Shown piece by piece: positions 29,912 to 36,468 of a stretch of 38,209 nucleotides of DNA (the stretch's first letter is position 1; every line of letters starts with the position of its first letter). Source of the stretch: Gammaproteobacteria bacterium (GTDB lineage: Bacteria > Pseudomonadota > Gammaproteobacteria > Tenderiales > Tenderiaceae); the NCBI GenBank assembly GCA_021731365.1, contig JAKFXL010000067.1, positions 1 to 38,209 of the forward strand. Direction: 5' to 3'. The notes below the pieces were generated by a model. The model saw nothing but the letters and a program-made list of their open reading frames with translations. It was not told the origin of the DNA and did no database searches. The position numbers and the translations under genes were made by a program.

Positions 29912-30436
29912 TCAATCATTCCAGCTCTCCGCTCCCAATACTCTGATTTCGTTCTCGGCATAAGAGCCTTCATTTGCTTTCTGATGACACAACTCACACT
30001 GGCCGAGACTCTTTATCTTTTCATTACCTCTTACTCTGTTGGCCACCTCACGGTGTTCACGAATAAAATAGGGCACTTGGGAAATGCGCACCGGGGTATC
30101 CACCTTACGGATTGAGTGAAGCATCTGTGCTGAACGTTTATAGTTAGCGCGCTCAGCCGAGTTGTTCACCAGATACTCAAGCAACACCGGCTGATCAGCC
30201 GTCGGCAGCTCCGCATTATCACCAAAATGGTCATGTAAATTTTCCATCACCTTGCGCCATGACCGTTCCGGCAACAGCCCCGGCTGATAGGCCAGATGGC
30301 AGGCACCACACTCTTTGGCATATTTAATATTTGTCACCGCTGCAAAATCGGTATTAGGTGCACCGGCCAATACATAACCACTATTTACCAACAACCATGC
30401 AATCCCGGCAACCATTGCCCATATTCTGTTTTTCAT
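29912..30436 (-). CDS. di-heme cytochrome c (DHC family)
   Basis: A 174-residue periplasmic di-heme protein. The start at 30436 is favoured because GGGGA lies six bases upstream; earlier in-frame ATGs (30442, 30457) lack spacing. After a signal peptide (cleavage near VLAG, residues 23-25) come CGACH (43-47) and CELCH (147-151), with the DHC-specific block HLAYQPGLLPERSWRKVM and later TPVRISQVPYFIREHREV. It is a paralogue of the C-terminal half of the cytochrome b fusion protein at 30900-32087. DHC proteins act with SHP-type cytochromes and a membrane cytochrome b in a small electron-transfer chain known from Rhodobacter sphaeroides and Shewanella. Third and last gene of this operon. Confidence 0.87.
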   Translation of the reverse strand: MKNRIWAMVAGIAWLLVNSGYVLAGAPNTDFAAVTNIKYAKECGACHLAYQPGLLPERSWRKVMENLHDHFGDNAELPTADQPVLLEYLVNNSAERANYKRSAQMLHSIRKVDTPVRISQVPYFIREHREVANRVRGNEKIKSLGQCELCHQKANEGSYAENEIRVLGAESWND

Positions 30437-30470
30437 CACCATTCCCCGTCTCGACAAAATATTTGGAACG

Positions 30471-30878
30471 CTATTGCCCCTTCAGGTATTCAAGAAAGTC
30501 ACCTTTCTCCTGGGGTGTGCACTCCCGACCCAATACCTGTTTACAGTTACGCAAAAACCATTTGTTAACAAATTTGATATCTGTCAGCCGCTCTTTATTG
30601 ACCGAGGGTGCCAACGGATCAATCACCTTGCCGGTCTTTTCATGTTTGCCCGATTTTTTCAAATCGTCTGTATGACAGGTCTGGCAGCTGAACTCTTTAC
30701 CGGACTCAGCATCTTTATGTTTTTCAACCCACATCTTCTCTCCTTTAGCGGCACTGAAAGGACCCGCACCTGCCGTTTTGTACTCTTGCTGGAGTGTATC
30801 AACCACGCTCGCCTGGGCAAGCCCAGCCAACGTTGTCATACACCCCATCAAAATCACCGCTAAGAATCTCAACTTCAT
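30471..30878 (-). CDS. DUF1924 (SHP-like) monoheme cytochrome c
   Basis: A 135-residue exported cytochrome. The signal peptide is MKLRFLAVILMGCMTTLAGLAQA. One heme site, CQTCH (65-69), is followed by TDDLKKSGKHEKTGKVIDPLAPSVN and LTDIKFVNKWFLRNC. The Asn in FVNKWFLRN and the Cys pair of NCKQVLGREC (113 and 121) are features of the sphaeroides-heme-protein (SHP) group, in which a displaceable Asn ligand lets the heme bind oxygen or other small molecules. It lies between the cytochrome b fusion gene and the DHC gene, all minus strand, with gaps of only a few tens of bases. The family match is firm; the in-vivo role of SHP is unsettled. Confidence 0.88.
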   Translation of the reverse strand: MKLRFLAVILMGCMTTLAGLAQASVVDTLQQEYKTAGAGPFSAAKGEKMWVEKHKDAESGKEFSCQTCHTDDLKKSGKHEKTGKVIDPLAPSVNKERLTDIKFVNKWFLRNCKQVLGRECTPQEKGDFLEYLKGQ

Positions 30879-30899
30879 GACATTGCTCCTTGATCAATA

Positions 30900-32087
30900 T
30901 TATTTATCTTTACCGCCTAAAATGGCTTTCAACCACTCAATGCCATCAAAAGCATTCTCTCCTGGAATACGCATATCAGCATCTTCAAAGGTGCCCTGTT
31001 TGGCATCGAAATGACAAGCCCCACAATTGGCCCTGTTTTTAATCTCATTACGTTTCCAAACCTCAGCATCTACCTCTTCATGTTTACGTTTCCAGTAGCT
31101 CACATCGGTAATACGCAATGGAGTCTCACTGCTGGGGATGTTGCTGTTCATTCGCCAAGCGGGTTCCGTCTGCTCTAAATCAGCGGAATTTTTCTGGGCA
31201 TATGCCAGCAATTCATTCACGGTCTTTTCGTCAAGGGCCAGATCATCACCAAAATGGTCCGCTTGCTGTTTCAATATCTGTTGCCATGAACGCAGTGGTA
31301 ACAGCGAAGGATGGAAGGCAAGGTGGCACTCACTGCACGCCTCAGTCCAGGGATCATTCATCACCAGATGTGGCCCCTGAAACGGCAGATAGGGCTTCTC
31401 TTTGGTGGCGGTGAGATAACCACCAAAAGTAGCAATCACATAGGCGGCCACCACCGCAATAATGGTTGCCCCGACCAGACGGTGAGGACGAACACCCAGT
31501 GTTGCAGTGGCAACCGACTTAGTCCCCCTGAACATGGAGCCAACCAGATTTTCACGATGAAAAAAACTCTCAACCAACACGCCGCACACATGTACAAATA
31601 CCAGCAGCAGCAACGTGTAAGCGACAAACTCATGTGTCTCGCGGAACGGCACACTCTGACGAAAACCCACAATCCCCGCCAAGGGTCCGTGGCGCTCCTC
31701 CCCGCCCAAGACAAAAAGCCCGGATACAGTTAATACCAACCCCATGGCAATCAGGGCAAAAATCGCCCACGCCCCGGCGGGGTTGTGACCCACGTAACGA
31801 CGCATATCGTCACCAAAGAGTCCTTTGATATAAGCGATCGCGTCACCAGGCCCATAGCTAAACTCACGAAAGCGTGCGTAATGGGTACCAAAAACACCCC
31901 ATACCAGGCGAAAAATTAACAATCCCAAAAAGGTATAACCGGCAAACGTATGTACATCCAGATAACGGTTGTCCTCGTAGCTCAACCACGCCATGGCAAA
32001 CGCTGTTACCAACAACCAGTGGAAGAGCCGCACCGGCAGATCCCATACCAGCACCGACCGATCATTTTTTTGATTCCTGTCTATCAT
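30900..32087 (-). CDS. cytochrome b561 fused to a di-heme cytochrome c domain
   Basis: A 395-residue inner-membrane protein. I place the start at 32087 because GGAG lies six bases upstream; a TTG 51 bases earlier is in frame but weak. The N-terminal half (about 10-225) is a four- or five-helix b561-type domain with likely heme ligands His23 (RLFHWLL), His46 (DVHTFAGY), His152 (THEFVAY) and His166. After the last helix the periplasmic part (about 235-395) carries CSECH (251-255) and CGACH (355-359), homologous to DHC. So quinol-linked heme b and periplasmic heme c are fused in one chain. With SHP and a second DHC it forms a complete quinol-to-periplasm electron route. It is the first gene of the operon. 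Confidence 0.9.
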   Translation of the reverse strand: MIDRNQKNDRSVLVWDLPVRLFHWLLVTAFAMAWLSYEDNRYLDVHTFAGYTFLGLLIFRLVWGVFGTHYARFREFSYGPGDAIAYIKGLFGDDMRRYVGHNPAGAWAIFALIAMGLVLTVSGLFVLGGEERHGPLAGIVGFRQSVPFRETHEFVAYTLLLLVFVHVCGVLVESFFHRENLVGSMFRGTKSVATATLGVRPHRLVGATIIAVVAAYVIATFGGYLTATKEKPYLPFQGPHLVMNDPWTEACSECHLAFHPSLLPLRSWQQILKQQADHFGDDLALDEKTVNELLAYAQKNSADLEQTEPAWRMNSNIPSSETPLRITDVSYWKRKHEEVDAEVWKRNEIKNRANCGACHFDAKQGTFEDADMRIPGENAFDGIEWLKAILGGKDK

Positions 32088-32317
32088 GCCCTGCTCCAGA
32101 TCGTATCGAACACCATTGCTTGTCACTGTAGTCGACAAGTCTTAAACAATCCTGAATCAGGCGGCACCCATGCCTCCAGACACCGATCACTCATATTGTG
32201 TGTCACGGTACGATCAAGACTGTTTCAGGTTCTCCTGTATCTAAAAACAGGCAGTGACGGCCTCATCGCCCGAGTATCAATATTTACCAGCAATTCTGTA
32301 AGTGCTAGCATCCCCCC

Positions 32318-32812
32318 ATGACAAAAGATCACGTAGATTTTGTAATAGAGCAGTGGCATGACGAACGTCCGGATATCGATCCTTCACCGATGGCCGTTAT
32401 CGGGCGACTGGTGCGCTTAAATGCCATCATCAGCAATGAACTACAGCAGGTTTTCTCACAATATGAACTCAACTTGGGTGAGTTTGATGTACTCGCCACC
32501 CTGTTACGTTCCGGCAAACCGTATGCACTAATGCCCAATAACCTGTTCAAAAGCCTGATGCTCTCTTCGGGGGCCATGACCAACCGGATTGACCGGCTCG
32601 AGTCAAAAAACCTGGTGCAACGTAGACCCGATTCGGCCGATCGCCGCAGCATTATTGTGTCGTTGACACCCGAGGGGCTGGATTTAATCAACATTGTGAT
32701 TTCACATCACGTCAACAAGGGCAGTGAGCTATTAAGCGGGCTATCCAAAGACGAACAAGAGACTATCGCCGGATTACTGAAAAAACTGTTACTTCAACAT
32801 TCGCAAAACTAA
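32318..32812 (+). CDS. MarR-family regulator, PecS-like
   Basis: A 164-residue winged-helix dimer that usually represses genes and lets go of DNA on binding a ligand or on oxidation. The recognition region is KSLMLSSGAMTNRIDRLESK, followed by the wing VQRRPDSADRRSIIV. The upstream helices (VIGRLVRLNAIISNELQQVF and GEFDVLATLLRSGKPYAL) are closest to the PecS/HucR branch of MarR. PecS regulators normally stand divergent to a PecM (EamA) efflux gene; here the EamA gene is next door but convergent, with the coding ends overlapping by four bases. The likely operator is the 28-bp palindrome at 33829-33856. There are no Cys residues, so thiol sensing is unlikely. Confidence 0.85.
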   Translation: MTKDHVDFVIEQWHDERPDIDPSPMAVIGRLVRLNAIISNELQQVFSQYELNLGEFDVLATLLRSGKPYALMPNNLFKSLMLSSGAMTNRIDRLESKNLVQRRPDSADRRSIIVSLTPEGLDLINIVISHHVNKGSELLSGLSKDEQETIAGLLKKLLLQHSQN

Positions 32813-33934: not shown

Positions 33935-34010
33935 ATAACAATAATTATCACTTGCATCATAAGATCTCGCCTTGTAACATCAGAACCAATCAATAATGAT
34001 TCTCATTAGC
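33935..34010 (+). promoter_or_regulatory. Fur-box-like sites before the porin operon
   Basis: AATAATGATTCTCATTAGC (33992-34010) matches 15 of 19 positions of the Fur consensus GATAATGATAATCATTATC. A weaker copy, AATAACAATAATTATCACT, lies at about 33936-33954 (12 of 19). The good site ends 18 bases before the GTG start of the porin gene, so Fur-iron would block expression. Confidence 0.65.
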
Positions 34011-34028
34011 AAAGATAGGAGCTTTCCC

Positions 34029-35156
34029 GTGTTCAAGAAAAAACCCTTAGCCATCAGCATGATTACCGCCCTGCTCAGCACCCCGGCGTTGGCCAATACT
34101 GATATCGAGTCACTACAACAACAGCTCAAAACCCTGCAATTACAACTCGAACAGACCAGCAGCAGTGTTGATAACCTGATGCAGAAGGGTTCCGGCCGGA
34201 GTGACACCACAATTGGTGGTTATGGTGAGATGCACTACAACAACCTAGACAGCGGCAAGGAGATCGACTTTCACCGTTTTGTACTGTTTTTCAACCATGA
34301 GTTCTCCGATCGCCTGCGCTTCTTCTCAGAGCTAGAGCTGGAACATGCCCTGAGCGGCGAAGGCCAACCGGGCGAGGTGGAGCTGGAGCAGGCCGCCATC
34401 CAGTTCGACATCAACAACAATTTGGCGGTCACTGGCGGTCTCTTCCTGCTGCCTGTTGGCATCATCAATGAGACCCACGAACCCGCCACTTTTTACGGCG
34501 TGGAGCGCAACCCGGTGGAAAAAAACATCATCCCCACCACCTGGTGGGAAGGTGGCGCGATGATTTCGGGCAAACCCGCCCCGGCTTGGCGCTATGACGT
34601 TGCCGTCACCTCCGGCCTGAGTGTGTCGACCAGTGGCAGCAAGGCCTACAAGATTCGCGATGGCCGTCAGAAGGTGGCATCAGCGCCCGCTGAAGCGCTG
34701 GCCGTGACTGGCCGCCTGCAGTGGCAACCGCAGGCAGGCACACAGATTGGGGTGACGGCGCAGCAGCAGGACGACATCACCCAAAGCACCACAACAAAAG
34801 CCAGCGCTACCCTGCTGGAGGCCCACGCCACCCTCCAGCAAGGACCGTTTGGGCTACGCGCCCTCTATGCCGCCTGGGATATCAACAGCACTGCCGCCGA
34901 GGCAATTGGCCGCAACGAACAGACCGGCTGGTATGTCGAACCCTCCTACAAACTCTCGGAAAAATGGGGGGTATTTGCCCGCTACAACGTTTGGGATAAC
35001 GAGGCGGGAGATAACAGCGACAGCGTCCAGAAGCAGGCCGACATCGGCATCAACTACTGGCCCCACCCCAGCGTGGTGGTCAAGGCCGATCTTCAGAACC
35101 AGCACGGCACCATCGGTAATGATGGTTTCAACCTGGGTCTGGGTTACCAGTTCTGA
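34029..35156 (+). CDS. outer-membrane porin, phosphate-selective OprP/OprO-like type
   Basis: A 375-residue porin. I chose the GTG at 34029 because AGGAG lies seven bases before it (34017-34021) and it gives a proper signal peptide (FKKKPLAISMITALLSTPALA); the ATG at 33996 is inside the Fur box. After the signal, a short coiled coil (IESLQQQLKTLQLQLEQTSSSVDNL, cited as IESLQQQLKTLQLQLEQ) is followed by a 14-18-strand barrel with alternating residues and the terminal Phe of GLGYQF needed for BAM insertion. Such coiled-coil porins occur in many proteobacteria. It is the first gene of an operon with FMN-binding and PepSY genes and overlaps the next start by one base (TGATG). Iron-regulated uptake is inferred from the Fur box. 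Confidence 0.82.
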   Translation: MFKKKPLAISMITALLSTPALANTDIESLQQQLKTLQLQLEQTSSSVDNLMQKGSGRSDTTIGGYGEMHYNNLDSGKEIDFHRFVLFFNHEFSDRLRFFSELELEHALSGEGQPGEVELEQAAIQFDINNNLAVTGGLFLLPVGIINETHEPATFYGVERNPVEKNIIPTTWWEGGAMISGKPAPAWRYDVAVTSGLSVSTSGSKAYKIRDGRQKVASAPAEALAVTGRLQWQPQAGTQIGVTAQQQDDITQSTTTKASATLLEAHATLQQGPFGLRALYAAWDINSTAAEAIGRNEQTGWYVEPSYKLSEKWGVFARYNVWDNEAGDNSDSVQKQADIGINYWPHPSVVVKADLQNQHGTIGNDGFNLGLGYQF

Positions 35157-35710
35157 TGCCGGCAGTGTCACCAAAATCATCGCTGGTACCATCATTGGCG
35201 ATGCTGTTGTTCGCCCTGGCGTGGCTGCTTGCCGCCACGCCAGCGGCGGCACGTGGCACCTATCTACCACCCGCCGACTTCATTCAACAGAGCTTTGCCA
35301 ACCAGCCACCCGCACCAAAACTGCTATGGCTGGATAAAGAGCTACAAAAATCGGTGAACACCATTCTCGGCCATGACTATCCGGCACTGCGGCTGCGCTA
35401 CTGGCGTCAGCAACAGCGCAGCCTCTGGGTGCTGGAAGAGATCGGCAAGGAGCAGCCCATCACACTCGGCATCGTGGTCAACGCGGGAGCCATTGAGACA
35501 TTTGAGGTGCTGATCTTTCGGGAGAGCCGTGGTAGTGAAATCCGTCACCCCTTTTTCACCCGCCAGTTCGACAAGGTGAGTCTGGATCAAGACGGCCAAC
35601 TGAGCAGCACGGTTGATGGTATCTCTGGCGCCACACTCTCGGTCCGGGCCGCCACCCGTCTGGCACGCCTGGCGCTGCTGTTCCATCAACAGGTAGTCAA
35701 CCGGCCATGA
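35156..35710 (+). CDS. periplasmic FMN-binding domain protein
   Basis: A 184-residue protein with an N-terminal signal or anchor (about 10-33, cleaved near PAAARG) and an FMN_bind domain at about 85-175. The covalent-attachment motif is DGISGATLS, with Thr160 the likely FMN acceptor; the same SGAT motif is found in NqrC and RnfG, where ApbE adds the flavin. Family members carry electrons on the outside of the membrane. It overlaps the porin gene upstream (TGATG) and the PepSY gene downstream (ATGA), so the three are coupled. No apbE is in the window and one must exist elsewhere for this to work. Signal-type start and domain are clear; its electron partner is inferred. Confidence 0.87.
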   Translation: MPAVSPKSSLVPSLAMLLFALAWLLAATPAAARGTYLPPADFIQQSFANQPPAPKLLWLDKELQKSVNTILGHDYPALRLRYWRQQQRSLWVLEEIGKEQPITLGIVVNAGAIETFEVLIFRESRGSEIRHPFFTRQFDKVSLDQDGQLSSTVDGISGATLSVRAATRLARLALLFHQQVVNRP

Positions 35711-36468
35711 GACGTCGCACCCCCTTCAGGGCACAACTGCGCCCCGCCCCACTGCACCGCCGCGTTGGCATAGGCGCGGCACTCTTTATTATTGTGTTGG
35801 CAGTGAGTGGTCTGCTGCTCAACCATACCGATACCCTGAAACTGGACCAGCGTCAGGTCGACTCCAGCCTACTGTTGCAGTGGTATGGCATCGACATGCC
35901 CGACCAGGCCAGCCACTACGACAGTGGCAGCCACCGCATCAGTCAGCTCGGTGAACAGATCTACTTCAACAGCCAGCCGTTGTTAAGCAGTAAACAGCCG
36001 CTGATCGGCATCACCAGCAATGAACAGCTGACGATAGTTGCCCTGAGCAACACTCTGCTGCTGCTTTCGCACGAGGGTGAACTGGTGGAACGGCTCGATA
36101 CCCTGCCACAAGGCATGCATAAGATCGACGCCATCGGCAGCGACACTGACGGCAACGTCGCGATCCGTCAGGGTGAGCGGATGGTAGTCGCCGATCAAGA
36201 GCTGCTCAGCTGGCAGGCGGCAGCTCCCCAGCTGAACATCAAGTGGTCACAAGCCAGCCAGGTGGATGCCGCCTACAGCAAAAACCTGCTGTCAAACTAT
36301 CGCCAACAGACACTCGATTACGAACGGGTACTGCTCGACCTGCACAGTGGCCGTCTCTTTGGCCAATGGGGTCCTTATGTGATGGATGCGGCCGCTGTGG
36401 CCATGGTGCTGCTGGCGCTCACCGGCCTCTGGCGCAGCCTCAAAGGCCGCGCCAGAAAGCGGTGCTAA
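35707..36468 (+). CDS. PepSY-associated membrane protein
   Basis: A 253-residue inner-membrane protein with two membrane helices: one at about residues 18-40 (ALFIIVLAVSGLLLNH) and one at about 225-245 (AAAVAMVLLALTGLW), joined by a periplasmic domain of about 180 residues. The His-Arg-Arg-Val start of helix 1 (LHRRVG) and the GLLLNHTDTL block after it are typical of the PepSY_TM family. In that family helix-borne His residues can bind heme and pass electrons, and some members are ferric reductases. Here it is coupled to the FMN-binding gene by a four-base overlap. Together with the porin this suggests electron transfer or iron reduction at the envelope. Which metal is served is not certain. 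Confidence 0.82.
   Translation: MRRRTPFRAQLRPAPLHRRVGIGAALFIIVLAVSGLLLNHTDTLKLDQRQVDSSLLLQWYGIDMPDQASHYDSGSHRISQLGEQIYFNSQPLLSSKQPLIGITSNEQLTIVALSNTLLLLSHEGELVERLDTLPQGMHKIDAIGSDTDGNVAIRQGERMVVADQELLSWQAAAPQLNIKWSQASQVDAAYSKNLLSNYRQQTLDYERVLLDLHSGRLFGQWGPYVMDAAAVAMVLLALTGLWRSLKGRARKRC

Follow-up and report, generated by a model that had tools for sequence, protein, structure and literature searches.

Does the joining of a cytochrome b561 domain to a diheme cytochrome c (DHC) in a single reading frame, with an SHP gene and a second, separate DHC gene behind it, set this locus apart from other SHP operons, and what would two DHC modules do side by side? The window analyzed here is the whole stretch of 38,209 nucleotides from the gammaproteobacterial contig JAKFXL010000067.1. 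Open reading frames, Pfam assignments and PDB matches agree with a preliminary description of the locus in that the fusion, SHP and a second DHC are all present, and the three minus-strand reading frames were confirmed in the order fusion, SHP, separate DHC (Table 1). The intergenic gaps are approximately 21 bp between fusion and SHP and 28-34 bp between SHP and the separate DHC, depending on the ATG chosen, and the expected heme motifs are all intact across the three genes. A CytB/mDHC chimera, SHP and sDHC, closely spaced on one strand, make up the layout of Rhodobacter sphaeroides, and we consider it very probable that we are dealing with an SHP operon of this layout, a quinol-fed supply of electrons to SHP.

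Table 1. Genes of the SHP operon in the window and the evidence for their assignment.
Feature	Position	Strand	Evidence
cytochrome b561–DHC fusion (CytB/mDHC)	30900..32087	-	Pfam, PDB matches of C-terminal part, hydropathy, His conservation
SHP (DUF1924)	30471..30878	-	Pfam, PDB 1dw0, motif
separate diheme cytochrome c (sDHC)	29912..30442	-	Pfam, PDB 3u99/2fw5, CxxCH + further His

The fusion protein comprises 395 amino acids counted from the in-frame ATG at 32087, while the open frame 30900-32138 reaches upstream to a TTG at 32138. Within this longer frame Pfam assigns Ni_hydr_CYTB to residues 31-205 (E 7.6e-23) and DHC to residues 264-384 (E 5.2e-37), and the fused DHC matches PDB entry 2fw5. 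Hydropathy analysis yields five hydrophobic segments near residues 12-35, 45-71, 101-131, 150-178 and 197-228, and as this is an odd number, the C-terminal DHC would be located across the membrane from a cytoplasmic N-terminus. Histidines 23, 46, 152 and 166, in the cytochrome b561 family (PF01292) the putative ligands of two b hemes, are retained in 40, 40, 41 and 41 of 41 fused proteins, with one gap each at the first two positions. Both CxxCH motifs and two further histidines are found in every one of the 41 fused DHC domains (PF09626). The complete fusion is 79, 74, 59, 51 and 47% identical to five other records, and a structure prediction from a six-row alignment was low-scoring (mean pLDDT 47, pTM 0.35).

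SHP is a protein of 135 amino acids with a leader and one CxxCH motif, assigned to DUF1924, the SHP family, with an E-value of 1.5e-38 and matching the solved SHP structure 1dw0 with an E-value of 1.4e-20. Its distal motif WFLRNCKQVLGREC aligns with the Trp84/Asn88/Cys89/Cys97 region of the R. sphaeroides protein (numbering as given in PMC2909971), and by this alignment the Asn ligand, the nearby Trp and the cystine pair are conserved. The asparagine for which the preliminary description had proposed heme spectroscopy is thus retained at the position of Asn88, and the alignment to 1dw0 together with the motif reveals the features that define the family, a single c heme, Asn as sixth ligand, a Trp close by and a cystine pair after the ligand. 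The separate DHC (frame 29912-30457, E 1.3e-34) has an N-terminal leader; its ATG is at 30442 or 30436, and the listed start is a TTG at 30457. Two CxxCH motifs and two further histidines occur in both DHC domains of the operon, which are 34% identical to one another, and in 83 of 83 non-fused DHCs. Note that in one other locus (L133) SHP and DHC share an open frame of 337 amino acids, and that the length of the SHP frames of L090 and L110, 540 and 434 amino acids, may come from overlapping long frames or from fusions of another kind.

From the conserved histidines and CxxCH motifs, the predicted carriers are the SHP heme, a pair of b hemes and two pairs of c hemes, one tethered and one soluble. 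Quinol, the presumed donor, would pass electrons to the b-heme pair in the membrane domain. With the fused DHC brought into the periplasm by the fifth helix, its c-heme pair would receive them there, and the soluble DHC, acting second in the order we infer, would hand them on to SHP. Reduced SHP would then lose its Asn ligand and bind O2 or NO at the heme, and the protein may serve in the periplasm as an oxygenase or in the detoxification of NO, or else, under metal or redox stress, as the final acceptor of electrons. Such a route from quinol through cytochrome b, tethered DHC and soluble DHC to SHP was put forward in the preliminary description, and it does fit the conserved ligands, but it is not new: the path from quinol via CytB and the DHCs to SHP was proposed in 2010 for this type of operon in PMC2909971. 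For R. sphaeroides the same paper reports reduction of SHP by DHC, O2 binding by SHP and an NO dioxygenase activity of SHP. For the further suggestion that the doubled DHC would suit 'long-range' or 'branching' transfer we find no support in the analysis. A literature search joining diheme cytochrome c, cytochrome b561 and SHP returned no paper.

The surroundings of the operon consist, according to Pfam, of a downstream gene for a DUF481 protein, a divergent MarR gene (32318-32812, across a gap of 230 bp) and an EamA transporter; the sensor kinase/response regulator pair that is usual in other SHP operons does not adjoin it. A role of the MarR protein as regulator of the operon was considered, and the specific link is unsupported, with a MarR homolog in no other locus of the search set. 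A scan for promoters and terminators gave nothing convincing: 5 promoter-like sites compare with 3.4 expected from shuffled sequences, none of them in the 230 bp between MarR and the fusion, and 6 terminator-like sites with 2.6 expected, one of which, a weak one, lies directly after SHP (30480-30465, minus strand). Elsewhere in the window, at 33996-36468, genes for porin-like, FMN-binding-domain and PepSY-TM proteins (Pfam) stand close together on the plus strand and may constitute a further module for redox reactions or metal uptake.

How common the layout is was assessed in 369 genomes drawn evenly from the window's class. SHP matches were present in 58, of which 57 exceeded the Pfam cut-off, and the locus of the remaining genome (G108) was left out of the neighborhood count. 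All 60 above-cut-off SHP places in these 57 genomes were inspected with flanks of approximately 4 kb, cut short at several loci by the end of the contig. The fusion adjoins SHP in 18 of the 57 genomes, and in 17 the separate DHC is present as well, so that 17 of the 18 class genomes with a fusion retain it. The statement that cytochrome b, SHP and DHC are separate elsewhere consequently holds for most of the species surveyed in PMC2909971, but not for R. sphaeroides nor for these 17 genomes, and fusions with a second DHC are both common and already studied in that paper, the very circumstances that the preliminary description had named as counting against its reading. Within the window's own family SHP occurs in 8 of 11 sampled genomes; the stretches fetched from these eight contain the fusion in four (G000, G001, G005, G007), an unfused CytB in three (G002, G003, G010) and neither in one (G006). 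Outside the class, the phylum sample was restricted to loci whose DHC lies in an open frame of at least about 350 amino acids, giving 19 loci of 18 genomes and hence lower bounds: the fusion is found in at least 17 of these 18 genomes, chosen for their long DHC frames, and together with SHP within approximately 3 kb in at least 11. Six genomes of one family (f215; L183-L188) have a fusion with neither SHP nor a separate DHC within approximately 3 kb, so that SHP may not be the only possible partner of the fusion and another may take its place there.

An unnamed membrane protein of about 185 amino acids, with no significant Pfam match, is located between CytB and SHP or just before SHP/DHC in 16 other fetched loci (examples are L136:4453-5013, L109, L141, L138 and L015:7286-7834). 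In the window's own genome, such a protein and a lone extra DHC are found on another contig away from SHP (G000 contig C8, L190:4506-5677).

The presence of two DHC domains in one operon raises the question of their relationship, and we calculated trees of DHC and CytB domains, leaving out DHC domains shorter than 95 and CytB domains shorter than 140 residues and dropping L016 and L017, whose DNA is the same as that of L140 and L107. The tree, calculated from 124 DHC domains, contains a branch with a support of 98/95 that keeps all 41 fused domains together on the same side. One extra row, L020, joins them there; its CytB and DHC occupy two overlapping frames, and judged from these it looks like a split fusion. 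When Ruegeria and Caballeronia are included, a quick tree of DHC domains still has two label changes, the extra one likely being L020, and no starred branch forces a split. As the 98/95 branch parts fused from non-fused DHCs, the two DHCs of the operon are, on the evidence of this tree, old and distinct lineages and not the product of a recent duplication.

The CytB tree (85 rows, among them no named alpha fusion, the Ruegeria fusion row being absent) is less simple: its fused rows are not one clade, with four label changes, two of them forced by starred branches. In this tree one group with a support of 99/97 takes in 37 separate CytBs, and a further six are nested among the fused ones in a clade of their own (100/98; its placement 92/81). 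By an alignment-based count, a fifth hydrophobic helix follows the b561 core in 39 of 41 fused, but in only 6 of 45 separate CytBs, and these six are exactly the clade nested among the fused proteins. Where the DHC tree includes a neighboring DHC of these six, that DHC belongs to the separate type. On the unrooted CytB tree, the six may be fusions that have lost their DHC or may represent a stage before the fusion. We are evenly divided on whether in the sampled Pseudomonadota all fusions carry one old DHC lineage gained once together with the fifth helix, the one group of CytBs with an orphan helix being former fusions or relics of the time before. If true, a single gain would, at least within Pseudomonadota, depart from the 2010 interpretation (PMC2909971), by which the CytB-DHC chimera arose more than once; the Campylobacterota chimeras are outside the sample. 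The single DHC lineage with its fifth-helix correlate is the modest addition of the present work; it appears in no paper of our literature searches and goes beyond the treatment of the chimera in PMC2909971.

Three other explanations of the locus were weighed against an electron supply to SHP through both DHCs. That two genes were joined artificially by an error of assembly or frame, as the overlapping CytB and DHC frames of L020 might suggest, is refuted for practical purposes by the recurrence of the open fusion in 41 proteins from many genomes. It is also rather improbable that the fused DHC alone feeds SHP and that the separate one is a redundant, recent duplicate. Both are DHC domains with the sequence identity given above, and two loci possess fusion and SHP with no separate DHC in the 4.5 kb that start at a contig end (G077) or in the 4.9 kb at hand (L178). 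The copy is nevertheless old, as the DHC tree parts fused from non-fused domains, and where the fusion occurs in the class the separate DHC is nearly always kept, with all its heme ligands intact. On the tolerance of its loss, a partial answer comes from a relative only: a mutant in the Shewanella oneidensis DHC gene SO_4485, annotated 'for energy production', has a complemented fitness phenotype in the data of PMC3219624.

Somewhat less improbable, but still unlikely in our estimate, is a service of the module in electron transfer to periplasmic or extracellular metals or minerals, with SHP as relay or sensor instead of oxygenase. In Allochromatium vinosum the cluster Alvin_0020-0023, which encodes SHP, two DHCs and cytochrome b561, ranks with the genes of strongest induction on pyrite relative to sulfide in the expression data of PMC11267869; on a Caballeronia plasmid SHP-DHC-CytB adjoins copC, copD and a heavy-metal P-type ATPase; and SO_4485 of S. 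oneidensis reaches a higher level on an electrode compared with Fe(III) citrate, as reported in PMC3271074. However, methyl orange reduction by S. oneidensis fell when SO_4485 was overproduced (as described in PMC8524038), the operons of A. vinosum and Caballeronia are annotated without a CytB-DHC fusion, and the clues from A. vinosum and S. oneidensis come from operons unlike the fused one in the window. Moreover, the window SHP retains the Asn ligand and the cystine pair that characterize SHPs able to bind O2, and Pfam searches identified no metal genes directly beside its operon. A literature search for chromate together with these cytochromes found no paper. The preferred reading remains a quinol-fed route to SHP. 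Its tethered and its soluble diheme carrier belong to lineages that parted long ago, and their joint retention suggests that the two DHCs do different jobs.

Among known systems, the SHP clusters of A. vinosum and Shewanella contain CytB, SHP and DHC of the same families, but in the cluster descriptions of PMC2909971, PMC11267869 and PMC3219624 CytB is not fused to DHC and regulator or metal-efflux genes are included. The plasmid of Ruegeria sp. YS9 (NZ_CP102411.1, L192) encodes a CytB/DHC fusion, 31% identical to that of the window over 89%, a DUF1924 protein and a diheme cytochrome c in the same order, but ahead of them are genes for PepSY, a response regulator and a histidine kinase, which the operon of the window lacks. 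Fusion, SHP and DHC follow one another in the same order in Sedimenticola selenatireducens DSM 17993 (L019; fusion 47% identical) and in the Gallionellaceae MAG Bin_58_16 (L015; 79%), the latter with an additional membrane protein of approximately 182 amino acids and a third DHC downstream. This MAG holds the closest operon found, nearer than those of two genomes of the window's own family (74 and 59%), a closeness that may be due to gene transfer or to a misnamed MAG. The first SHP operon to be described, that of R. sphaeroides, consists of CytB/mDHC chimera, SHP and sDHC, and its account in PMC2909971 lists five further species with the chimera, most species having CytB unfused. The window shares with it the three genes, their order, the fusion, an SHP with Asn ligand and cystine pair and the absence of kinase or regulator genes from the operon, and differs in the divergent MarR gene, none being mentioned in the operon description of PMC2909971. 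The operon of the window is thus an ordinary case of a fused layout that is both published and common.
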